From: an uncultured Colwellia sp.
GTDB taxonomy: Bacteria; Pseudomonadota; Gammaproteobacteria; Enterobacterales; Alteromonadaceae
DNA length: 34,478 bases
Assembly: GCA_913061365.1 (NCBI GenBank)
Contig: CAJXUT010000009.1
Location: 1 to 34,478 of the forward strand
Direction of reading: 5' to 3'
Below are positions 1 through 11,541 of this stretch, piece by piece (the stretch's first letter is position 1; every line of letters starts with the position of its first letter). A program made the position numbers and the translations under genes. The notes beneath the pieces are model-generated. The model did not search any database. It was not told the DNA's origin and saw nothing but the letters and a program-made list of their open reading frames with translations.

Positions 1-52
1 GAGATCTACACTATCCTCTTCGTCGGCAGCGTCAGATGTGTATAAGAGACAG
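1..52 (+). other. Nextera i5 sequencing adapter (artefact)
   Basis: This is not genomic sequence. Positions 1-11 match the end of the Illumina P5 adapter, 12-19 read TATCCTCT as an i5 index, and 20-52 are the Nextera read-1 adapter. The last part ends with the 19-bp Tn5 mosaic end at 34-52. The genome begins at 53. Confidence 0.98.
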
Positions 53-137
53 TTTCAGGGAGTTCTTGCTCTCGGTTTTGTAAAGCTAAACTTAACTCTA
101 GATCTGTTTCTTTTTGTGCTCTGTCGGCATCATCCAT
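53..137 (-). CDS. TraR/DksA-type zinc-finger protein, N-terminus only
   Basis: An open frame starts at the ATG at 137 and runs off the contig at the adapter junction. Only 28 residues are present. An in-frame stop lies upstream, and AAGGA stands about 10 nt before the ATG, which fixes the start. The N-terminus (MDDADRAQ, then an acidic helix ending LALQNREQELPE) resembles phage and plasmid TraR/DksA-family proteins. In those proteins such a helix precedes a C4 zinc finger, and they bind the RNA polymerase secondary channel. The zinc finger itself would lie beyond the contig, so the family call is an inference from a short stretch. The gene diverges from the one at 221. Confidence 0.5.
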
Positions 138-220
138 TTCAAACTCATCCTTTACTTGTGGTTAGTTTTGGTTTTGTTAATATTGCAAAAAGATTATTAT
201 CAACAAGGAAGTGAAATATA

Positions 221-451
221 GTGAAAAAACCAAAAACAGCTAAAGGGCAAATATTCTCACCAGGTGGTTTTTTGCTTATGGGGTTTTGCCTGTTTTTAAT
301 CATGGGATTTATGCTAGTAAAAACCCAAGACGAACTAGATAAAGCTGAGCGATACATAACGTTTATGCACGCAAACATGCCAGATAGCTTGATTAGAAAA
401 ATAAACAAACAATACAACCAAGAGCAAGCAGATAGGTACGATAACCAATAG
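221..451 (+). CDS. Small single-pass membrane protein, unknown
   Basis: A 76-residue protein starting at GTG 221, with AAGGAAG at 205-211 as the ribosome binding site. Residues about 14-34 form one hydrophobic helix after a basic N-terminus (KKPKTAKG). The rest is a charged, probably cytoplasmic or periplasmic tail. It diverges from the TraR-like gene at 137 and converges with the gene ending at 468. I do not recognise a family. Small membrane proteins are common in prophage accessory regions, but nothing here shows a specific role. Confidence 0.6.
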   Translation: MKKPKTAKGQIFSPGGFLLMGFCLFLIMGFMLVKTQDELDKAERYITFMHANMPDSLIRKINKQYNQEQADRYDNQ

Positions 452-467
452 TTAGAATGGCTAAGCA

Positions 468-692
468 TTACGCTGCAGCCTTTTCAAAGTACTCTACAAC
501 ATCCATACTTCTCTCTAACGAAGGATTGATTGCATCGCTAGCAACTTTATAAAACCAAGATTCAATATTTTTAATATTTTGTTTTTTATTTTCAAAAACA
601 ATAGCTGCTGCTATCTCAGGAATTTTTTTATCTTTTTTGGCTTGTTTAATAAGCCTTACCGCTTCACTTTTAATTTTTCTTTTTGTATTCAC
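468..692 (-). CDS. Small basic protein of the element's regulatory module, unknown
   Basis: The frame is open from an ATG at 752, but I place the start at the GTG at 692 (74 residues). A good sigma-70 promoter (-35 at 758-763, -10 at 736-741) and an operator-like palindrome (712-727) lie inside the longer version. A transcript from that promoter would not include codon 752. GTAGG precedes the GTG. The protein is rich in Lys in its first half and helical, and it ends in Ala-Ala-Ala. No family is recognised. It diverges from the XRE-type gene at 871, the usual layout of a phage immunity or switch region, so a regulatory role is possible but unproven. Confidence 0.55.
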   Translation of the reverse strand: MNTKRKIKSEAVRLIKQAKKDKKIPEIAAAIVFENKKQNIKNIESWFYKVASDAINPSLERSMDVVEYFEKAAA

Positions 693-711
693 TATGCACC
701 TACGATCTGAT

Positions 712-727
712 ATGGATAATCGTCCAT
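712..727 (-). promoter_or_regulatory. Operator-like palindrome O1
   Basis: In the direction of transcription (minus strand) the core reads TGGACGATTATCCA at 726-713, flanked by A and T so that the 16-mer has TGGA/TCCA arms. It begins exactly 9 nt after the -10 box of the promoter for 468-692. It is one of four copies with the pattern TGGACNATNATCCA at the same promoter position. Confidence 0.7.
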
Positions 728-735
728 TAAATTGG

Positions 736-763
736 ATCATAAACCAATACACGGTAAATGCAA
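736..763 (-). promoter_or_regulatory. Sigma-70 promoter for the gene at 468-692
   Basis: On the minus strand the -35 is TTGCAT (763-758), the spacer is 16 bp, and the -10 is TATGAT (741-736). The predicted transcript start is near 729, just before operator O1. This argues for the GTG start at 692 rather than the ATG at 752. Confidence 0.65.
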
Positions 764-780
764 TAAATAGTTCACATTTA

Positions 781-844
781 TTGACATAAAAATACTGTAT
801 ATATAAACAGTATGGTATCTATTTGTTTACTGGACTATAATCCA
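781..844 (+). promoter_or_regulatory. Promoter region of the XRE gene at 871 with operator O2
   Basis: Two promoters can be read. One is TTGACA (781-786) with TATAAA (802-807), a short 15-bp spacer. The other has -10 TATCTA at 816-821 and a weak -35 (794-799) inside the LexA box. The second fits the shared design: operator TGGACTATAATCCA (831-844) starts 9 nt after TATCTA. LexA and the operator-binding protein could thus both act on this promoter. Confidence 0.6.
793..812 (+). promoter_or_regulatory. LexA (SOS) box
   Basis: The 20-mer TACTGTATATATAAACAGTA differs at one position from the enterobacterial SOS consensus TACTGTATATATATACAGTA and keeps the CTGT-N8-ACAG core. It sits between divergent genes (468-692 and 871-1317) and overlaps the promoter region of the latter. 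The host LexA would be expected to repress here and release on DNA damage. Confidence 0.85.
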
Positions 845-870
845 TAGACACACAACTTACGCCTGATACC

Positions 871-1317
871 ATGAACCCAAGTCAAGCTTTTACAAAGAAT
901 TTTTTGAAGTTATATAGCGAAAGCAACATTAAAAATGCCACGGCCTTAATGGAGCTCATTAATCAGAGATCTGGTGAAAAAGTCATTGATAATAGCTATA
1001 TTTCAAAAATGCTCAAAGCAGCAAAGAACGGGGAAACACTAAACCCATCAATTGATAAAGTTGCAGCCATAGCTGTTGGGTTTAATGTCACATTAACATC
1101 AATGATCACGGAAGATGTGAATAGTGGTTACGCTGAGTTAGACGTAAAAAAATTAGAAGCTGCGTATAGGCATACTGACAGCTTTTGTGAAAGTGCTAAC
1201 ACTGACAGTAGCGAATTCAAAGCTAGAGCTTTTAAATTACAATACGAAGCATTACTTTTCGGTAACAACAACCTTGCGTTTAAAATGCATCAATTAGCTA
1301 AAGAATTTGGTATTTAG
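871..1317 (+). CDS. XRE-type helix-turn-helix regulator, LexA-controlled
   Basis: A 148-residue protein. Residues about 20-80 read as a lambda-repressor-like HTH: a helix with LMELINQ, the turn and recognition segment SYISKMLKAAKNGETLNP, then a helix-rich stretch ending TLTSMI. The C-terminal half is helical and shows no S24 self-cleaving peptidase motif, so this is not a CI/LexA-type autoproteolytic repressor. No good Shine-Dalgarno precedes the ATG. A LexA box and operator O2 lie upstream. It could be an SOS-induced switch protein, by analogy with phages that use a LexA-controlled antirepressor, or the lysogeny repressor itself. Its 3' end overlaps the convergent gene at 1298 by 20 nt. Confidence 0.75.
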   Translation: MNPSQAFTKNFLKLYSESNIKNATALMELINQRSGEKVIDNSYISKMLKAAKNGETLNPSIDKVAAIAVGFNVTLTSMITEDVNSGYAELDVKKLEAAYRHTDSFCESANTDSSEFKARAFKLQYEALLFGNNNLAFKMHQLAKEFGI

Positions 1318-1576
1318 ATTCAGCTATATCATTTGCTATATGTGTTTCAATATCAGCTAAATGCTTCTCAACTTCCAATTCAACCTCCGCTAAACGCGCT
1401 ATCTTTTCAGCTTTATCTATATGCATCCGTCTAATATCTCGCTGCTTCATTAATAATGAAGTACTTAAATCAAAGTTATATGTTTTTTCCTGCAACATCT
1501 TTTTTGTTACTTTTATGATCGCTATTATGGCGAGCATGAAAAGAACTATCATCATCACTACTACTAAAGTTTTCAT
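1298..1576 (-). CDS. Single-pass membrane protein with charged helical tail, unknown
   Basis: A 92-residue protein starting at the ATG at 1576, behind AAAAGGA. Residues 3-22 are a strongly hydrophobic helix. The rest is a highly charged amphipathic helix with heptad-like spacing (KAEKIARLAEVELEVEKHLADIE is its core, around residues 55-77), probably a coiled coil. The first 101 nt overlap the end of the upstream membrane-protein gene in another frame. It is the last gene of the minus-strand operon 2147-1298. No family is recognised. The overlap and shared promoter suggest it works with the polytopic protein. Confidence 0.65.
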   Translation of the reverse strand: MKTLVVVMMIVLFMLAIIAIIKVTKKMLQEKTYNFDLSTSLLMKQRDIRRMHIDKAEKIARLAEVELEVEKHLADIETHIANDIAESKYQIL

Positions 1577-2057
1577 TAAATATCCTTTTAAAAAATGCCA
1601 AGAGCATAACTATTATTGGTACATAACCAATAATTACTCTTAAAGTGTTACTAAACCTTGGTAGTGTCGTGATTATTTCGTATGCAAGAGGTAAATCAAA
1701 AATATGCCTGTCTACAACACGATATAGCAAAGCAAACATGCTGATCGCGATAAGAACACTGAAAGCTACCGATAGCGTTTTATTTATTTGGTTTTTTACG
1801 AACGATAGATAAACAACAATAGTCATCAAAGAAAACTCTGAAAAACTCCATATCAAATACCTATAAATCTTTTCTGGATCAATTGATTTTATATAACCAT
1901 GAATAGTAGATGTGTATATAAAATCTAAAGAGATAATAAAAAAATAAAGCGCTAATTTTTTATCCCTTAACGAATAGGCAAGACCTACACCAAACACAGA
2001 CATAGTAATAAAATAGTTATATGTTACCAATGCTGTAATATCTGCCCATCCGTTCAT
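1476..2057 (-). CDS. Polytopic membrane protein of the element, unknown
   Basis: A 193-residue protein starting at the ATG at 2057 behind AGGGAAA. About five transmembrane helices are visible, near residues 12-30, 34-52, 66-86, 95-112 and 139-156. A hydrophilic Ser/Asp/His/Lys tail (160-193) follows. The tail is encoded by the stretch that also encodes the membrane helix of the next gene. I recognise no family. It lies between a 21-codon ORF and a small membrane protein, under an operator shared with the element's switch genes. Prophage operons of this kind often carry exclusion or lysogenic-conversion functions; that is an inference from position only. Confidence 0.65.
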   Translation of the reverse strand: MNGWADITALVTYNYFITMSVFGVGLAYSLRDKKLALYFFIISLDFIYTSTIHGYIKSIDPEKIYRYLIWSFSEFSLMTIVVYLSFVKNQINKTLSVAFSVLIAISMFALLYRVVDRHIFDLPLAYEIITTLPRFSNTLRVIIGYVPIIVMLLAFFKRIFNENFSSSDDDSSFHARHNSDHKSNKKDVAGKNI

Positions 2058-2081
2058 TTTATTTCCCTATAAAGTTAATAC

Positions 2082-2147
2082 TTATTTTTTATCTTTCTCA
2101 TCATCGCCATTGCCATTGCCAACTGCTAAAACATTAATGTTACTCAT
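2082..2147 (-). CDS. 21-residue peptide gene leading the membrane operon
   Basis: A short frame with an ATG at 2147 and TAA at 2084-2082. AAGGA stands 7 nt before the ATG, one of the better Shine-Dalgarno sequences in the module. The peptide begins MSNINVLAV, continues with a Gly-Asn repeat (GNGNG), and ends in a charged DDEKDKK tail. It lies 24 nt upstream of the polytopic membrane protein, behind a clear promoter and operator O3. It may be a translated leader, a small partner of the membrane protein, or chance. The strong ribosome binding site and position favour real translation. Confidence 0.45.
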   Translation of the reverse strand: MSNINVLAVGNGNGDDEKDKK

Positions 2148-2174
2148 GATAAATCCTTACTTAAGTTAAAATGA

Positions 2175-2226
2175 ATGGATCATTGTCCATAAAGGTGTAC
2201 TATAGTCAATTAACAATGAAGTGCAA
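2175..2226 (-). promoter_or_regulatory. Promoter and operator O3 of the peptide/membrane operon
   Basis: On the minus strand: -35 TTGCAC (2226-2221), 16-bp spacer, -10 TATAGT (2204-2199), 9 nt, then operator TGGACAATGATCCA (2189-2176). The predicted start is near 2192, so a bound repressor would cover the initiation site. Confidence 0.7.
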
Positions 2227-2308
2227 GCTTTTTCAACGCTCCGTGTTAAATAACGAAACAAAGTAGACAATAAACAACTTATTAAATCAATAACAAGAAA
2301 TGAATTAA

Positions 2309-2343
2309 TTGTCGATGATGACCGTTTTAATGATATTGGTCAT
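2309..2343 (+). promoter_or_regulatory. Possible promoter with a different inverted repeat, upstream of 2389
   Basis: TTGTCG (2309-2314), 16 bp, TGATAT (2331-2336) form a weak promoter. The arms ATGACC (2318-2323) and GGTCAT (2338-2343) flank the -10 region and could be an operator for the downstream XRE protein. The TGGACNATNATCCA motif is absent here, so this gene appears to sit outside the four-promoter set. Confidence 0.35.
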
Positions 2344-2388
2344 ACAGTTTGACCGCGCATTGCATTTACCACGTAAGGCGAGTACATA

Positions 2389-2709
2389 ATGGTTATGGGT
2401 GCCAATTCTGTTTTAGCGAAGAAAATAACGGACATAATGCAGATGCAAAATGTTACGGTAGAATCGCTCGCCAATAAAACAGGTTTAGCCAGAGGTACTA
2501 TTTCTAATATGAGAAATGGTAAAAATCACTACACCTGGCAACTACAATTAATATGCCAAGAACTTAATATTCCGATGGCATACTTCCTTGATGATCAGCT
2601 ATCAGCTGCACACCTTATCGCCATACAATCAATAATAAGTATAGATAACGAACAATTCTTACTATCAATTGCTCAAACAATAAACCTATCGAAAAATAAT
2701 GGAAAATAA
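2389..2709 (+). CDS. XRE-family helix-turn-helix transcriptional regulator
   Basis: A 106-residue DNA-binding protein. Residues about 8-65 are a classic lambda-repressor-like HTH: AKKITDIMQMQNVTVESLA, then TGLARGTISNMRNGKNHY as turn and recognition helix, then LQLICQELNIPMAYFLDD. The C-terminal 40 residues are short and helical, with no peptidase or ligand domain. AAGG lies about 10 nt before the ATG at 2389; an alternative start is ATG 2395. The gene sits upstream of the promoter for 2789 and its stop codon lies in the O4 palindrome. It is a candidate Cro- or C-type regulator for the element and possibly the protein that binds TGGACNATNATCCA. Confidence 0.8.
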   Translation: MVMGANSVLAKKITDIMQMQNVTVESLANKTGLARGTISNMRNGKNHYTWQLQLICQELNIPMAYFLDDQLSAAHLIAIQSIISIDNEQFLLSIAQTINLSKNNGK

Positions 2710-2771
2710 TCCATAAAAGCTTGACACCCCCTCAAAATAGACTATCATCACACTATCTGGACAATAATCCA
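2700..2771 (+). promoter_or_regulatory. Promoter with operators O4 and O5 for the 2789 transcript
   Basis: -35 TTGACA (2721-2726), 16 bp, -10 TATCAT (2743-2748), 9 nt, then O5 TGGACAATAATCCA (2758-2771). A one-mismatch copy, O4 (TGGAAAATAATCCA, 2700-2713), lies upstream of the -35 and overlaps the stop of the preceding gene. Two sites 58 bp apart flanking one promoter would allow cooperative or looped repression. This may be the main early promoter of the element, since no other strong promoter was seen before the recombination genes. Confidence 0.7.
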
Positions 2772-2788
2772 CTTAGTAGGTCTTAAAG

Positions 2789-3079
2789 ATGAACTGTTGC
2801 ATAACAACTAGAATTACAAACCAAGCGGAAGCCAAAGTAAACAAGCAGGCTTTAGTTGATTTGTTTGATAAAAGCCAAGGGGATTTTAGTAACGGCATGC
2901 TGAATTTATCAGATGTTATTTGCAAAGCCATTGACGAGGATCGTCAAAACACTGCAGACATACTTTGTGAATTATCGATATCAAGAGATGCCGACACAAA
3001 AAAACACATAGCACTAAAAAATTATTTAAAAAAAGTCATAAGTCATGTGGCGTTAGAGATGAATAAAGAGGCGGCTTAG
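2789..3079 (+). CDS. Small early protein, unknown
   Basis: A 96-residue protein, largely helical, with a Cys pair near the N-terminus (MNCCITTR) and the C-terminus MNKEAA. TAGG stands 8 nt before the ATG. It is the first gene behind the O4/O5 promoter. The stop codon lies in the loop of a perfect GCGGC-TTA-GCCGC hairpin (3071-3083), which begins the long structured non-coding stretch. No family is recognised. Its position is that of a phage early regulator, but the sequence shows no clear HTH. Confidence 0.6.
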   Translation: MNCCITTRITNQAEAKVNKQALVDLFDKSQGDFSNGMLNLSDVICKAIDEDRQNTADILCELSISRDADTKKHIALKNYLKKVISHVALEMNKEAA

Positions 3080-3779
3080 CCGCTAGTAAAGAATCGCGGT
3101 GTATAGCATATGCTCCACTTACGAAGATAAGCGTAATGATGCAGACAACAACCTAGTGTGTCGTAATCAAATTCGTAATCGGAATTAGTGAATGAAGTTA
3201 GCAGTGAACTCGCATGAAGCAAAAGGTAGCTTCTAATCGGGGTGTAAGCTAACCGAGTATAGAGTCAGCAAAATCTTAGCTGATGAACCAGGATACTGAG
3301 GAATGCTATTTAACAGCGGCCGCAATGCCGTAAAACTACAACCAAACTGTAAATGTAAAGAATGTTCTACATCGACCCGTAAGGGGAAAGAATAGTTAGC
3401 CGAAGATGTGAAGGCGCTCAGCCATGCCACGTATGCGCAGTGAGGAAAACTACTGCTAAAGGCCGCATGGGGTAAATACCCGATTGATTACCGTAAGTAA
3501 TTTAGTTTTAAGGTGGTAGATGGGCAAGGTGAACTAGGCGCGTACTGGCTCTTTGCGGAAATTACGATATGGGCAGGCAATTTGTAGCGAGCAGCTGCCC
3601 TAGTAAGGACTTAAAGAAGTTAGAAAACCAGTAGCAGAATCAAAAGCAACCAGACACTTAACATCAATCGAGTGGGAATCTCGTTCAAATGAAGTAGAAA
3701 AGAAAACGGCCTTCATCGTGGTGGAGAAGGCCATTAACCAGATAGCTCAATGAGCTGTCGCAAACAACCGGAGTATATC
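3080..3779 (+). ncRNA. Candidate large structured RNA (about 700 nt, no credible gene)
   Basis: No convincing frame runs through this stretch on either strand. It is richer in G+C than its surroundings (34 of 60 bases at 3421-3480, 33 of 60 at 3541-3600). It holds many short hairpins, several nested. GTTAGC 3197-3202 pairs with GCTAAC 3248-3253 around a GAAGC/GCTTC hairpin (3216-3233). CCATGC 3422-3427 pairs with GCATGG 3465-3470 around GCAGT/ACTGC (3437-3456). CCC-GTAA-GGG (3376-3385) is a GNRA tetraloop hairpin. Others are at 3265-3283, 3470-3481, 3571-3600, 3669-3683 and 3708-3732. The strand is inferred from the flanking genes. It might belong to a large phage ornate-RNA class such as GOLLD or ROOL, or be new. 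No group II intron domain V was seen. Confidence 0.5.
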
Positions 3780-4031
3780 ATGGTTTCATCAACAGCAAAT
3801 ATAAATAGCACCTTAGATAAAATTGCTAGTGCTACTGCTGCCGCAAGACGAGCAGGAATTAAGATCAGCACAGCGTTTCATGGTGATTTGTTCTGTTGCG
3901 TAGCAATGGAAAACAACATTAATCGCACAATCGATTTAAATAGCCAAAGAGCTAACCTTAAGTTAAACGCCCTTTTGAAGCATATTTATTGTGTTACTCC
4001 TTCTAAAGTTGCAATGCAAGGAGCGCACTAA
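3780..4031 (+). CDS. Small hypothetical protein before the Red genes
   Basis: An 83-residue protein. The frame is open from 3750, but the ATG at 3780 follows CCGGAG with good spacing. The upstream codons also fall in an AGCTC/GAGCT hairpin (3744-3756), so I start at 3780. The N-terminal half is Ala/Ser/Thr-rich and helical (residues about 8-25). The middle holds a GDLFCCVAMENN segment and the C-terminus is basic. No family is recognised. The stop overlaps the next start (TAATG), so it is translationally coupled to the small gene at 4031 and the bet/exo genes. Confidence 0.6.
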   Translation: MVSSTANINSTLDKIASATAAARRAGIKISTAFHGDLFCCVAMENNINRTIDLNSQRANLKLNALLKHIYCVTPSKVAMQGAH

Positions 4032-4207
4032 TGAAAAGTTTTTCCGTTACCTTTTTACCTAAAAGCTCAAAAAACTTTGCAGTTGAATATGAGGTTCAAG
4101 CTGTTAATCAAACCAAAGCCGAAGAAATGGCTGTGATTAGCATGCGTGATGAAGGTTTTAGTCGTGATAACTATAAAAGTAAAGCTCAAGTAAGGAGTGC
4201 AGCGTAA
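4031..4207 (+). CDS. 58-residue DpnD/PcfM-like small protein
   Basis: A gene too short for most ORF thresholds, wedged between two TAATG stop-start overlaps (4029-4033 and 4205-4209). The protein runs from MKSFSVTFLP to QVRSAA. It has a beta-strand, a strand ending in YEVQAVNQ, and a helix TKAEEMAV. The same pattern occurs at the C-terminus of the exonuclease encoded at 5058 (FTVQVEW, YEVEAFSEEDAKENY), so the two look like the same small domain, once free-standing and once fused. The layout resembles the DpnD/PcfM-like family of phage and conjugative elements, whose function is not established. Confidence 0.6.
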   Translation: MKSFSVTFLPKSSKNFAVEYEVQAVNQTKAEEMAVISMRDEGFSRDNYKSKAQVRSAA

Positions 4208-5058
4208 TGTCTAATCAAAACCAGCAAGATACTCAAGTATTAACTTGGGAACAACAAAATACATATTTAGTTGAGCGCGGTATTAGCCAAGCAGTTTGGA
4301 GTGTTCTTTGTAATACGCTTTATCCTTCAAGCAAACCTGAATCAGTAATGCTCGCTTGGGACTATTGTGAAGCGCGTGAGCTAGATATCATGATGAAGCC
4401 TATTCATCTTGTGCCTATGCAAGTAAAAAACCCACAAACAGGCAATAAAGAGTGGCGCGATGTTCCTATGCCTGGCGTTGGTCTTTATCGCATCCAAGCA
4501 TCAAGAAGTGGTGATTATGCCGGAGCTGATGAACCAGAATTTGGCAAGACTATCGAAGCAACTTTTACTGATGCTTACAACGCCAACAAAAGCATAACCG
4601 TTCGCTATCCTGAGTGGTGCAAATACACCGTTTACAAAATGATAGGTGATCGCATAGTTAAATTTTCAGCTAAAGAATACTGGCTTGAGAATTACGCCAC
4701 AATGAAAGCCCAATCTGATTGCCCTAATGCTATGTGGAAAAAACGCCCTCATGGTCAACTTGCTAAATGTTGTGAAGCACAAGCATTACGTAAAGCATGG
4801 CCTGAAATCGGCCAAGAGCCAACAGCTGAAGAAATGGAAGGTAAGGAGCTTTTCGTAGGTGAAAAAGAAGTTAATCCTATCGAAAAAATAGAATCCTCTG
4901 AAAACGAAAAGTTAACTGAAATATATGAACGTGGCATCAAAGCTATTGAATCAGGCAAGCAAACCGCAGAACAAATTTTAGGATTTATCAATAAAAAAGG
5001 CTTGTCAATTTCACCAGAAAAAGAAGCAACGCTTCGCAATATTAAGGTAGCAGCATAA
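4207..5058 (+). CDS. bet: RecT/Redbeta-family single-strand annealing protein
   Basis: A 283-residue recombinase of the phage Bet family. These proteins anneal complementary single strands exposed by the partner exonuclease and form rings on ssDNA. Family landmarks visible: an N-terminal segment for large-scale oligomerisation (SVMLAWDYCEARELDIMMKP), the VGLYRIQASRSGDYAGADEP core, and the WKKRPHGQLAKCCEAQALRKAWPE block near residues 178-201, typical of RecT/Bet. The C-terminal 70 residues are acidic and variable. The gene is coupled to both neighbours by TAATG overlaps and is followed directly by its exonuclease. It ends in KVAA. Confidence 0.9.
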   Translation: MSNQNQQDTQVLTWEQQNTYLVERGISQAVWSVLCNTLYPSSKPESVMLAWDYCEARELDIMMKPIHLVPMQVKNPQTGNKEWRDVPMPGVGLYRIQASRSGDYAGADEPEFGKTIEATFTDAYNANKSITVRYPEWCKYTVYKMIGDRIVKFSAKEYWLENYATMKAQSDCPNAMWKKRPHGQLAKCCEAQALRKAWPEIGQEPTAEEMEGKELFVGEKEVNPIEKIESSENEKLTEIYERGIKAIESGKQTAEQILGFINKKGLSISPEKEATLRNIKVAA

Positions 5059-6836
5059 TGAAAATATTAAATTTAGTTCAAGGTACGAAAGAGTGGTTAG
5101 AGGTTCGCTTATCTCACTTTACAGCTAGTGAAGCCCCTATGATGATGGGTGACTCAAAGCACTTCACTCGAAACCAATTGCTTGATCATAAAAAAGGTTG
5201 GATAACTTCGGTTGACGAGTTTACACAAGAATTATTCGACAAAGGACATGCAGCTGAAGAAGCAGCAAGAGCTTTTATTGAGCTAGAAGAGTTTCAAGAC
5301 TTCTCACCAATAGTTATAAGTAATGATGTAGAAGGACTGCCGTTATTAGCTAGCTTAGATGGTCAACGAGAAGATGGTCAATTGAATTGGGAGCATAAGC
5401 TTTTCAATAAAACTTTAGCTGAAAACGTTTCTAATAATATTTTAGGTCCTAGTCATTACTGGCAATTAGAGCATCAAGCTATTGTTACAAGCGTTAATGA
5501 AGTGTTATTCACTTGTTCTGATGGTACTGAAGAAAATGCAGTGTCAATGATTTATGTATCCATACCAGAGCGTAGGGCGCAACTAATTGCAGGCTGGAAG
5601 CAATTTGCTAGCGATTTAGCTAATCATGAAATAGTAGCTAAAGAAGAAAAGGTTGTAGCGCAAGAATTACAAGCGCTACCAAAACTTGAAATATCGTTAA
5701 TAGGAAACGTTAGCAACAGTAACCTGGTTGAGTATAAAAGCACAGCTTTAGCATTTATTCAGTCGGTTAATACTGACTTACAAAGTGATCAAGATTTCGT
5801 TAATGCTGACAAAGCAGTTAAGTTTTTCTCATCTGGTGAAAAGGAGCTTGAAGCAGTAAAAGAACGCGCTCTATCCGATACAGCAGACATAAAAGCTTTA
5901 TTCTCAACTATTGATGAGCTTAAAGAAGAAATGCGCCAAAAACGCTTAACACTAAGTAAATTGGTAAAAAGCCGTAAAGATGAAATTCGCAATGATATTT
6001 CATTCAAGGCAAAAACTGAATTTAGTGAGCTACTTATCACCACCAGTAAAAACCTTAACGGTGTACAAATTACGCAAGTTATTGCTGATTTTGACGGTGT
6101 AATGAAAGGTAAACGTACTGTTGAATCATTACAAAACGCTGTAGACACTGAATTAGCTAGAGTAAAAATTGAAATATCTGAAATATCTGAACTAGTTCGC
6201 ACTAACTTGAATTCATTAACTGAGTTAGCCGGTGAGCATAAGTTCTTATTTAACGATTACGTTCAAATCATCTTCAAAGACAGTGACGATCTAACCAATT
6301 TGATTAAATCACGCATTGCTGAACATGAACTAGCAGAAGCAGAGCGAAAAGCCGCAGAAAAAGCGCAAATGGAAGCTGATGCGAAAGCCGAAGCTGAACG
6401 TGAAGCAGCAGAAAAGCTTGAACTCGAAGCACAGGCTATTCGTGATGAAGAACGAGCGAAAGTGGAAGCAGAGCAAGCCGAAGCCGCTCAAGCAACCGCC
6501 CTTTCATTAGCTAAACAAGTCGTAGCAGATAAGCCAGTCATTAAAGAATCGTTAACTAGCGAAGGCAAGGAAGCCGCTCCTCTTAAATCTAGCAATTCAG
6601 TAACAAGCCGTTTAGCTAAAACATTCGCTGACGTTCCTAGCACAAAAAAATTCACCGTACAGGTTGAATGGTCCGGTTATTCGCGCGGCTATACAGTTTA
6701 TGAAGTCGAAGCATTTAGCGAAGAAGATGCTAAAGAAAACTACTACGAAGGTAATGAAATTAGCCGTGAAGTAGTTCGCGATGATACCGAACGTAACGAA
6801 GTAAATATTATCAACGCTGATAGCGAAGCAGCTTAA
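5058..6836 (+). CDS. YqaJ/lambda-exonuclease-family nuclease with long coiled-coil extension
   Basis: A 592-residue protein. Residues 1-190 are a lambda-exo/YqaJ nuclease: QGTKEW (8-13), GHAAEEAA (63-70), catalytic Asp101 in LLASLDG, and Glu112-x-Lys114 in WEHK, giving the D-x10-E-x-K arrangement. It would resect double-stranded ends 5' to 3' for the Bet partner. Unlike lambda Exo (226 residues), it has a long helical extension (about 200-420), an Ala/Glu-rich coiled coil (about 425-485), and a C-terminal domain (about 530-592) like the 58-residue protein at 4031. The extension may hold the partner proteins or oligomerise the enzyme. It ends in SEAA. Confidence 0.9.
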   Translation: MKILNLVQGTKEWLEVRLSHFTASEAPMMMGDSKHFTRNQLLDHKKGWITSVDEFTQELFDKGHAAEEAARAFIELEEFQDFSPIVISNDVEGLPLLASLDGQREDGQLNWEHKLFNKTLAENVSNNILGPSHYWQLEHQAIVTSVNEVLFTCSDGTEENAVSMIYVSIPERRAQLIAGWKQFASDLANHEIVAKEEKVVAQELQALPKLEISLIGNVSNSNLVEYKSTALAFIQSVNTDLQSDQDFVNADKAVKFFSSGEKELEAVKERALSDTADIKALFSTIDELKEEMRQKRLTLSKLVKSRKDEIRNDISFKAKTEFSELLITTSKNLNGVQITQVIADFDGVMKGKRTVESLQNAVDTELARVKIEISEISELVRTNLNSLTELAGEHKFLFNDYVQIIFKDSDDLTNLIKSRIAEHELAEAERKAAEKAQMEADAKAEAEREAAEKLELEAQAIRDEERAKVEAEQAEAAQATALSLAKQVVADKPVIKESLTSEGKEAAPLKSSNSVTSRLAKTFADVPSTKKFTVQVEWSGYSRGYTVYEVEAFSEEDAKENYYEGNEISREVVRDDTERNEVNIINADSEAA

Positions 6837-7513: not shown

Positions 7514-8674
7514 ATGAAAAACATTCACGTATTTGCAACAGAATTACCAACGTTAGCCATCCTTGAGGAAAAAATTGTTGAAGCTGAAGGTATGTTATTT
7601 GCGCCTTTACTCGAAAGCCAATCGGCTAAGTTTGGCTTTTACCCTGATGAACCATTAGTTAAATTAAGTAATGGCTATAAAGTCAATTTCGTTTTTAGCT
7701 GGAAAAAACTTCCTATGTCAGCAATAAACGAAGAAGCAACCCGAAGAGTTCAAGCAACACTTGATGAATATGTTGATTTAATTGGTGATGAAGAGGCTAT
7801 CCAGTTACTAACTGAAGGTATGGTATCAAGTGTTCTCGCTGAATATTGCGGCAAAGTATTGCCTGAAACCGCTTATTTCAGCGCTTACTATCACACCAAG
7901 TCTGAAAAATTTATCGTTGATGCAAAAGAAGATTTCGCCAAACGCGCTATTGGTATGCTTTGTCAGTTATTGGGCTCACTTGAAACAACCACTTTGCATT
8001 GTAGTGGCATATCAAACTCATTAACCACCAATCTATTGGAAAGCTTAAATGACGACCAGGAACGCTTGAACGGTTTAACTTTCGCAGGGTTTAACGCTGG
8101 TGACTTATTGGTTTTAGCTAATAAAGATAAAGATATCGCCCGTTTCAAAGGTGATTATCCGCTTGATAATATCAAAGAGCTTTTAGAGTCTGGTTACGAA
8201 GTTAAGCAAATTAACTTATCTAAAGATGGCTTAGCCTTCACGCTAACTGAAAAATTCAAAATAAAACAAATTAAATCAACGTTCGATATTGATGATCATG
8301 AATCATTGAATGATGTAAATGACTTTAATTTACATCACGAAGCGGTAGAGCTTGAATTGATAGTTGCTCATTGCGACACACTTAAAACCTTCTTTGATCA
8401 AAGCGAAGAAAGTATAGGTGATGATCAACCACCAACAGATGAAACTAAAACATCACAACCTTCTAATGATGAAAATGAATACGCACCTGAATCACTTTAT
8501 GACGATGCCGTTGAATTTGTAACAGAAACTCGTCGTGCTTCTATCTCATCAATTCAACGTAAGTTCCGCATTGGTTACAACCGAGCAGCTCGAATTATGG
8601 ACCAACTTGAAGCTAATGACGTTGTATCTGAAGTTAGCAGCAACGGTTCAAGAGAAGTTTTAAAAGCAGCATAA
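7514..8674 (+). CDS. RdgC-like recombination protein fused to an FtsK gamma domain
   Basis: A 386-residue protein. Residues 1-290 resemble RdgC, a ring-shaped DNA-binding protein that modulates RecA (an F-x-P-L-L-E-S-Q-x-x-K-x-G-F start, KKLP, a [13 protein letters not shown] block, [26 protein letters not shown], and [20 protein letters not shown]). An acidic linker follows (about 295-327). Residues 328-383 are a clear FtsK gamma winged helix: [24 protein letters not shown] in the recognition region and SNGSREVL at the end, as in chromosomal FtsK. That domain reads KOPS motifs and activates XerD. The fusion could steer the protein to the terminus or dif. Good RBS (CAGGA). It ends in LKAA. 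Confidence 0.85.
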
Positions 8675-11453: not shown

Positions 11454-11541
11454 TTTTTAAAGTAGAGTTTAATAAAATAAAGAACATGGGTTCAAGTCCT
11501 GAACAGGGACCACGACCCCCACGGAGTAAAAAGGATTAATT

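Follow-up and report, generated by a model that had tools for sequence, protein, structure and literature searches.

Predicted immunity operators, a candidate short repressor and a LexA-boxed gene in the early region of a recET prophage from an uncultured Colwellia

The window analysed here, a 34,478-nucleotide (nt) stretch of an uncultured Colwellia sp. (assembly GCA_913061365.1, contig CAJXUT010000009.1, positions 1 to 34,478), contains an element that encodes a tyrosine integrase, a RecE-like exonuclease and RecT (Pfam PF03837; a single-strand annealing protein in PHROG). A tRNA-Leu(gag) gene is found about 30 bp from the end of the integrase gene, and we take the region described below as the early region of a prophage. 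A short palindrome, TGGA-N6-TCCA, is repeated in it. There is good support for the view that a single DNA-binding protein uses these sites as operators to act on several promoters of the element, and it is highly probable that this protein is a phage repressor. In the reading that we favour, with moderate confidence, they are the immunity operators, equivalent to the right and left operators (OR and OL) of lambdoid phages, of a temperate phage that carries recET and has integrated next to tRNA-Leu(gag); they would be bound by the product of the gene at 2389–2709 (gene 2389) and the product of the gene at 871–1317 (gene 871) would be its antagonist.

The exact 14-mer TGGACNATNATCCA is present at four places, and a copy with one mismatch at 2700–2713; the first-pass annotation of this DNA had located all five correctly. 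Full or altered, the motif word stands at eight places over four gene start points:

713–726, minus strand: predicted OR1-like operator, exact (TGGACGATTATCCA), 9 nt past the −10 of the PR-like promoter
733–746, minus strand: putative second operator (TGGTTTATGATCCA), 20 bp upstream of 713–726 and over the −10 TATGAT (741–736), one mismatch to the symmetrised motif TGGAYNATNRTCCA
831–844, plus strand: predicted operator, exact and single (TGGACTATAATCCA), downstream of the LexA-boxed promoter
2176–2189, minus strand: predicted operator, exact (TGGACAATGATCCA), from sequence match and assembly scan
2196–2209, minus strand: putative second operator (TTGACTATAGTACA), 20 bp upstream of 2176–2189 and over the −10 TATAGT (2204–2199), two mismatches
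2700–2713, plus strand: predicted OL-like operator, one mismatch (TGGAAAATAATCCA), spanning the stop codon of gene 2389
2738–2751, plus strand: putative second operator (TAGACTATCATCAC), 20 bp upstream of 2758–2771 and over the −10, three mismatches
2758–2771, plus strand: predicted OL-like operator, exact (TGGACAATAATCCA), from sequence match and assembly scan

TGGA-N6-TCCA occurs five times in the window against 0.26 expected, in agreement with the earlier estimate of less than one, and none of 100 shuffles contains at least five. In the entire assembly (3.79 Mb, 373 contigs, 90% complete), TGGANNATNATCCA has five matches, all inside 713–2771 of the window, and its backwards control has none; the sites thus lie within 2.06 kb of 3.79 Mb. 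Elsewhere in the assembly TGGACNATNATCCA is matched with one mismatch seven times, and as this does not exceed the 11 matches of the backwards control, we take these as chance. The symmetrised motif is found with at most two mismatches at eight places in 34.5 kb, seven of them inside 713–2771. The count of palindrome arms is on its own moderately strong evidence; it is the internal agreement of the sites, together with their confinement to this region, that makes the motif evidence strong.

A −10-like hexamer ends 9 nt ahead of each of the four exact sites. Counted by eye, its match to TATAAT is good at 713 (TATGAT), 2176 (TATAGT) and 2758 (TATCAT), with five of six bases each, and weak at 831 (TATCTA, three of six), where a plausible −10 had also been claimed. 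Of three −35 elements previously called clear at a 16-nt spacing, that of 2758 is perfect (TTGACA), whereas those of 713 (TTGCAT) and 2176 (TTGCAC) match at only three positions of six. A generic promoter scan of 400–4000 returns only the 2758 promoter in the form given below (11/12), and promoter-like matches are not enriched in this interval (13, against 14.7 in shuffles). The promoter elements are:

736–763, minus strand: predicted leftward promoter, PR-like, TTGCAT (763–758), 16 nt, TATGAT (741–736), from sequence and absent from the generic scan list
781–786, plus strand: −35 TTGACA of the putative rightward promoter of gene 871, from sequence
793–812, plus strand: near-perfect LexA (SOS) box TACTGTATATATAAACAGTA, the best match of the assembly to the 20-base pattern used
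2199–2226, minus strand: predicted accessory-operon promoter, TTGCAC (2226–2221), 16 nt, TATAGT (2204–2199), a form not returned by the generic scan
2721–2748, plus strand: predicted rightward early promoter, PL-like, TTGACA, 16 nt, TATCAT (11/12), from the generic scan

The fixed distance of 9 nt from −10 to motif most probably reflects paired operators, set about two helix turns from each other. At all three good promoters, a degenerate second operator is centred exactly 20 bp upstream of the strong site and lies over the −10; tandem pairs of this kind are the better explanation of the spacing. Summed over the three promoters, a shift of 20 gives 6 mismatches (mean over 92 shifts, 24.9; next best shift, 16). 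As the −10 box itself resembles the centre of the operator, we also resampled triples from the 447 TATNNT-centred 14-mers of the window, conservatively keeping the true sites in the pool, and obtained P = 0.00017 for the 20-bp pairing. The second site at 2738–2751 is weak by itself, 36 places in the window carrying three mismatches.

At the 831 site, better signals than the −10 are the TTGACA at 781–786 and the LexA box at 793–812. The 20-base LexA pattern was written with this box in view; its next-best match in the assembly, with one mismatch, shortly precedes a gene that we call dinB-like because its product has impB/mucB/samB (IMS) Y-family polymerase domains. AT-rich LexA-box-like sites (CTGT-N8-ACAG) also occur in two of 68 RecT relatives (L025, 12005–12020; L021, 4312–4327).

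These 68 relatives of RecT come from the collection viral_contigs. Five of them were examined, L016, L017 and L068 from sequence and open reading frame (ORF) tables and L011 and L067 by script; L011, L017, L067 and L068 were chosen because a palindrome screen printed repeats for them. In all four, the gene in cI position is flanked on either side by palindromes that differ in sequence from those of the window: GTAAGC-N3-GCTTAC in L011, TTACAAG-N5-CTTGTAA in L017, and TAGC-N5-GCTA in both L067 and L068. The palindromes stand next to a leftward gene of divergent orientation and again ahead of the early genes on the right, and the repressor-position gene lies in between; this gene carries an S24 domain in three of the four, that of L067 having 168 amino acids (aa) and no Pfam match. 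In L017, extra copies of the palindrome are found within genes. At the rightward promoter of L011, one site overlaps the predicted −10 (TACTAT, 4683–4688) and the next starts 8 nt past it, an arrangement close to that of the window except that the two are 26 bp apart; at that of L017, a site starts 3 nt past the predicted −10. Because four relatives show this layout with other operator sequences, it appears ordinary for this kind of phage, and the sequence of the window's operator was found nowhere else. What had been predicted for related elements, conservation of the motif and its spacing, is therefore seen for the general layout and not for the exact motif. The first-pass annotation's description of operators of one protein at several promoters is well supported, but it overstated the case in calling them a new regulon, as the immunity region of a temperate phage has this layout and gene order, with OR-like sites next to a divergent gene pair and OL-like sites ahead of the recET operon.

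The main genes of the proposed switch are:

468–692, minus strand: 74-aa protein in cro position (presumed GTG start at 692), without convincing family match
871–1317, plus strand: 148-aa protein behind the LexA box and an operator, helix-turn-helix (HTH) suggested by weak matches only; proposed SOS-inducible antagonist
2389–2709, plus strand: 106-aa short CI-like repressor (HTH_26) with no S24 match, from Pfam and ORF alignments; proposed binder of the sites
2789–3079, plus strand: 96-aa protein, first gene of the early rightward transcript, without convincing family match
4207–6836, plus strand: RecT-like annealing protein (4207–5058) and RecE-like exonuclease (5058–6836), downstream early operon, from family matches

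Two proteins, those of genes 871 and 2389, had been named as candidates for the binder. We favour 2389, which matches HTH_26 above the curated cut-off (29.6 against 22 bits), whereas 871 has no family match as an HTH protein and carries the LexA box. The 2389 protein is thus the predicted, and in our judgement the probable, binder of the sites. Its gene is located between two operator clusters, and the same operator is repeated at both early promoters (713/733 and 2738/2758). Pfam finds no S24 domain in it.

The 68 RecT relatives supply 3,170 ORFs of 70 aa or more, which we ranked by local alignment to the 2389, 871 and 468 proteins. For 2389, the top ten score 74 to 60 (mean 24, standard deviation 6) and all lie on the recT strand upstream of recT, in L016, L017, L036, L037, L040, L043, L049, L056, L059 and L075; several are near-identical to each other. 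HTH_3 is found in all ten, HTH_26 in nine and S24 in four (L016, L017, L037 and L040). Because these ten are all HTH repressor-type genes upstream of recT, we take 2389 as an equivalent of CI, cut to about its DNA-binding part. The top scores of 871, by comparison, are mostly unrelated proteins (the best, at 57, is a RecE), with L048, L057 and L058 at 48 looking HTH-repressor-like by eye; those of 468 look unrelated by eye save for one HTH-like ORF (L020, 43). Likenesses that we saw by eye between 468 and 871, and had considered between 871 and 2389, are not supported by pairwise scores. Peptidase_S24 matches neither 2389 nor 871, and is found in four of the five cI-position genes of L011, L016, L017, L067 and L068. 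Sequence searches of the PDB gave weak XRE matches for 2389 (best E 0.023) and one unrelated weak match for 871. The 468 gene occupies the position of a small divergent cro-like gene; it has no HTH match by Pfam, and its fold model is poor (predicted local distance difference test, pLDDT, 59).

No homologue of 2389 was found in viral_contigs, genome_contigs, phages or plasmids, and among 196 genomes of the family it matched only itself. Among 394 genomes of the order, 24 other than its own give matches (E 1.3e-5 to 8.7e-4, 24–35% identity, mostly in the HTH part), which were not used. For 871, viral_contigs and phages gave no homologue and the 196 family genomes only the protein itself; of the order genomes, 30 others have matches (E up to 0.05). 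Three of these loci were inspected: L149 and L142 look unrelated by eye, and L154 is an XRE-cupin-like protein with a pairwise z of 10.7, a value for a match pre-selected from the order-genome search. Plasmids add 14 records, all from Burkholderia and 28.8–30.0% identical, 12 of which are annotated as helix-turn-helix regulators. An HTH in 871 is only suggested by these matches. The exact motif, with its −10 and 9 nt, matches 30 stretches of viral_contigs, once in each; five of the 30 loci have one further TGGA-N6-TCCA with a different centre and 25 have none. As the matches are lone and 25 of the loci lack a second site, we take them as chance. The pattern of −35, −10 and operator has two single matches in genome_contigs, about the chance level by our own estimate.

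In the switch that we propose, a dimer of the 106-aa protein would bind the 14-bp palindrome TGGAYNATNRTCCA. At 713/733, 2176/2196 and 2738/2758, the strong site would lie at about +3 to +16 of the predicted transcript and the weaker one exactly 20 bp upstream, over the −10, and two dimers about two helix turns apart, possibly binding cooperatively, would shut out RNA polymerase. The 2700 site would help at the rightward recET promoter (2738/2758). The lone site at 831 would restrain gene 871 as well, whose promoter bears the LexA box. Lacking the self-cleaving S24 domain, 2389 would not be inactivated in the lambda way and would need another trigger. DNA damage would remove LexA, the 871 protein would be made and would antagonise the repressor, either through direct contact with it or through competition for its operators, so that the two early operons would open. 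We propose this role of SOS-inducible antagonist for gene 871 tentatively, giving it slightly less than even chances. The complete double lock, in which 20-bp tandem pairs silence the early and accessory operons through a non-cleavable short repressor and the LexA-boxed antagonist inside the immunity region is restrained too, is more doubtful still, though a serious possibility.

Several observations weigh against this reading. The start of gene 2389 itself lacks both an operator and a strong promoter, which leaves its expression in a lysogen unexplained. It is 871, not 2389, that adjoins the cro-position gene, where the examined relatives carry cI. The other six of the ten best relatives of 2389 have no S24 match in Pfam even at 207–232 aa. 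The 871 protein has no Pfam match, no usable fold (pLDDT 61) and nothing at E 0.001 in a fold search of the PDB. Neither the 831 nor the 2700 site is accompanied by a second operator 20 bp away, which weighs here in the case of 831. The 16-base LexA core on its own is expected 0.49 times in the window and is present in 38 of 100 shuffles. Among the relatives, the palindrome screen had no shuffle control, and some others (for example L043, L050, L063, L065 and L070) count as high or higher; L016 has no array that we recognise, L011 has one site only on its left (OR) side, and the operators of L067 and L068 do not follow the −10 but are found upstream of the −35 and over the spacer and −10. Finally, the collections searched yielded neither a relative carrying this motif nor any close homologue of 2389 or 871, and thus no comparative proof of binder and site.

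Alternatively, 871 itself could be the lysogenic repressor at the TGGA sites, with LexA activating its promoter, SOS lowering repressor synthesis and 2389 a secondary regulator. Gene 871 does stand in the place of cI, back to back with a small gene that reads leftward and with operators between the two, as in the relatives; the 168-aa gene of L067 without Pfam match has the same position, and three of the ten best matches of 871 (L048, L057 and L058, score 48) are those that look like HTH repressors by eye. Its 148 aa are near the 150-aa range given for non-cleavable repressors in PMC3121763, which also supplies the precedent of a LexA-activated repressor gene, rstR. We nevertheless consider this unlikely, as the other best matches of 871 among the relatives' ORFs are unrelated (top score 57, a RecE), against ten of ten HTH repressor types for 2389. 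Behind a perfect TTGACA, moreover, the LexA box overlaps the spacer and the likely −10, which is the usual place for repression; judged by eye, this position fits repression better than activation. A sharing of the sites in the manner of CI and Cro, in which 2389 and either 871 or the 74-aa product of 468 bind the operators with different preferences and set the switch by competing at the weak and strong members of the pairs, seems a little less likely again: strong and degenerate sites are indeed paired at three promoters, and one cluster lies beside the divergent 468/871 pair, but Pfam finds no HTH in 468 or 871 and the pairwise scores among the three proteins are at chance.

Two further explanations dispense with a phage repressor, and both are very improbable. 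The exact sites fall in the first transcribed bases of the predicted transcripts, as might be expected of RNA elements at 5' ends or of sites of a host regulator. By inspection, however, a hairpin of 4-bp arms around a 6-nt loop would be weak, the 2700 copy is away from predicted transcript starts, and the second sites lie on the −10 boxes and so fall outside the predicted transcripts; the host assembly, 90% complete, has no copies elsewhere, which makes a host regulon unlikely. The second explanation is that a short palindrome has clustered by chance in AT-rich phage DNA. In its favour is a harder control, which weakens the motif evidence a little: with any 4-bp arm and any gap of 2–10 allowed in window 1–4200, a five-member palindrome family arose in 2 of 100 shuffles. 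It has against it the internal agreement of the sites, their genome-wide confinement and the 20-bp pairs, and we hold it the least probable of all.

The favoured arrangement can be compared with known switches. In phages of the lambda, 434 and P22 type, OR and OL operators are bound by CI, and the S24-type repressor cleaves itself. The early region described here resembles a lambdoid immunity region in its tandem palindromic operators at divergent early promoters and before a recombination operon, in the HTH gene between them and in the covering of promoter elements. It differs in the missing S24 match, in two extra operator-controlled units (the membrane operon and the LexA-boxed gene) between the clusters, in the 20-bp spacing of centres and in the site at about +3 to +16.

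According to PMC3121763, the repressors of Gifsy prophages (GfoR and GtgR, with the antirepressors GfoA and GftA; relatives DicA and RacR) correspond to lambda CI in its N-terminal domain alone and do not undergo cleavage on induction. Like the present element as predicted here, these are recE-carrying prophages with a short repressor of CI N-terminal type without S24 and a LexA-controlled phage gene, the likeness to GfoR and GtgR being one of description (PMC3121763). The LexA-controlled Gifsy antirepressors act from outside the immunity region (PMC3121763), whereas the LexA-boxed gene here lies inside it, between operator clusters and with the phage operator; 2389, at 106 aa, is shorter than the 150-aa range given in that paper. 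Earlier LexA-controlled antirepressors named there are Tum of phage 186, with 146 aa, and AntC of N15 (PMC3121763). The 148-aa 871 protein is likened to them by size and description; Tum has a DinI-like half, whereas 871 has no significant family match. CTXphi also has a LexA box at the promoter of a switch-region gene, but there LexA activates the repressor gene rstR (PMC3121763), and here it would probably repress an antagonist.

Between the two clusters, a leftward accessory operon points towards gene 871 under the third operator pair (2176/2196):

1298–1576, minus strand: 92-aa protein with hydrophobic N-terminus (by eye), final gene of the operon, from the ORF list
1476–2057, minus strand: 193-aa protein, hydrophobic by eye and probably a membrane protein, without family
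2082–2147, minus strand: 21-aa peptide ORF MSNINVLAVGNGNGDDEKDKK, which opens the operon, from translation

None of the three products has a significant family match. The operon would stay silent in a lysogen and open on induction. The 21-aa ORF, directly behind the repressor-type operator pair, encodes a peptide with a Gly/Asn-rich, charged tail.

Further features lie outside the switch. Between genes 2789 and 3750, some 700 nt (3080–3779) have almost no rightward coding; this interval has no match in Rfam, folds little better than its shuffles (z −1.07) and has no blastn match in the 68 RecT relatives. The gene at 7514–8674 encodes a protein whose N-terminal part is RdgC-like and whose C-terminal stretch aligns with 59 positions close to the end of FtsK; neither likeness reaches the curated cut-off for whole proteins. 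In all, 254 phage records match its protein, 175 of them from Vibrio phages, and 102 cover at least 80% of it. At 11489–11513, a string resembling the 3' end of a tRNA (GGTTCAAGTCC...GGGACCA) lies just upstream of a small possible excisionase gene, with no tRNA called by ARAGORN. Window 1–52 resembles a transposase adapter, which we take to be of Nextera type. Of 26 phage records that match, the 20 listed do so only within bases 1–59; we therefore consider the element cut at base 1 by the assembly and its left part missing.

The phage thus carries switch proteins without a close relative in the collections searched. A short repeated motif leads here to a testable model of the switch, in which the likely repressor is named and the LexA-boxed gene is the candidate trigger of induction where the usual self-cleaving domain is missing. 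If the double lock is true, an SOS antagonist would lie inside the immunity region, under the phage's own operator, and the need to lift both LexA and the phage repressor before it fires would be a built-in threshold against accidental induction.

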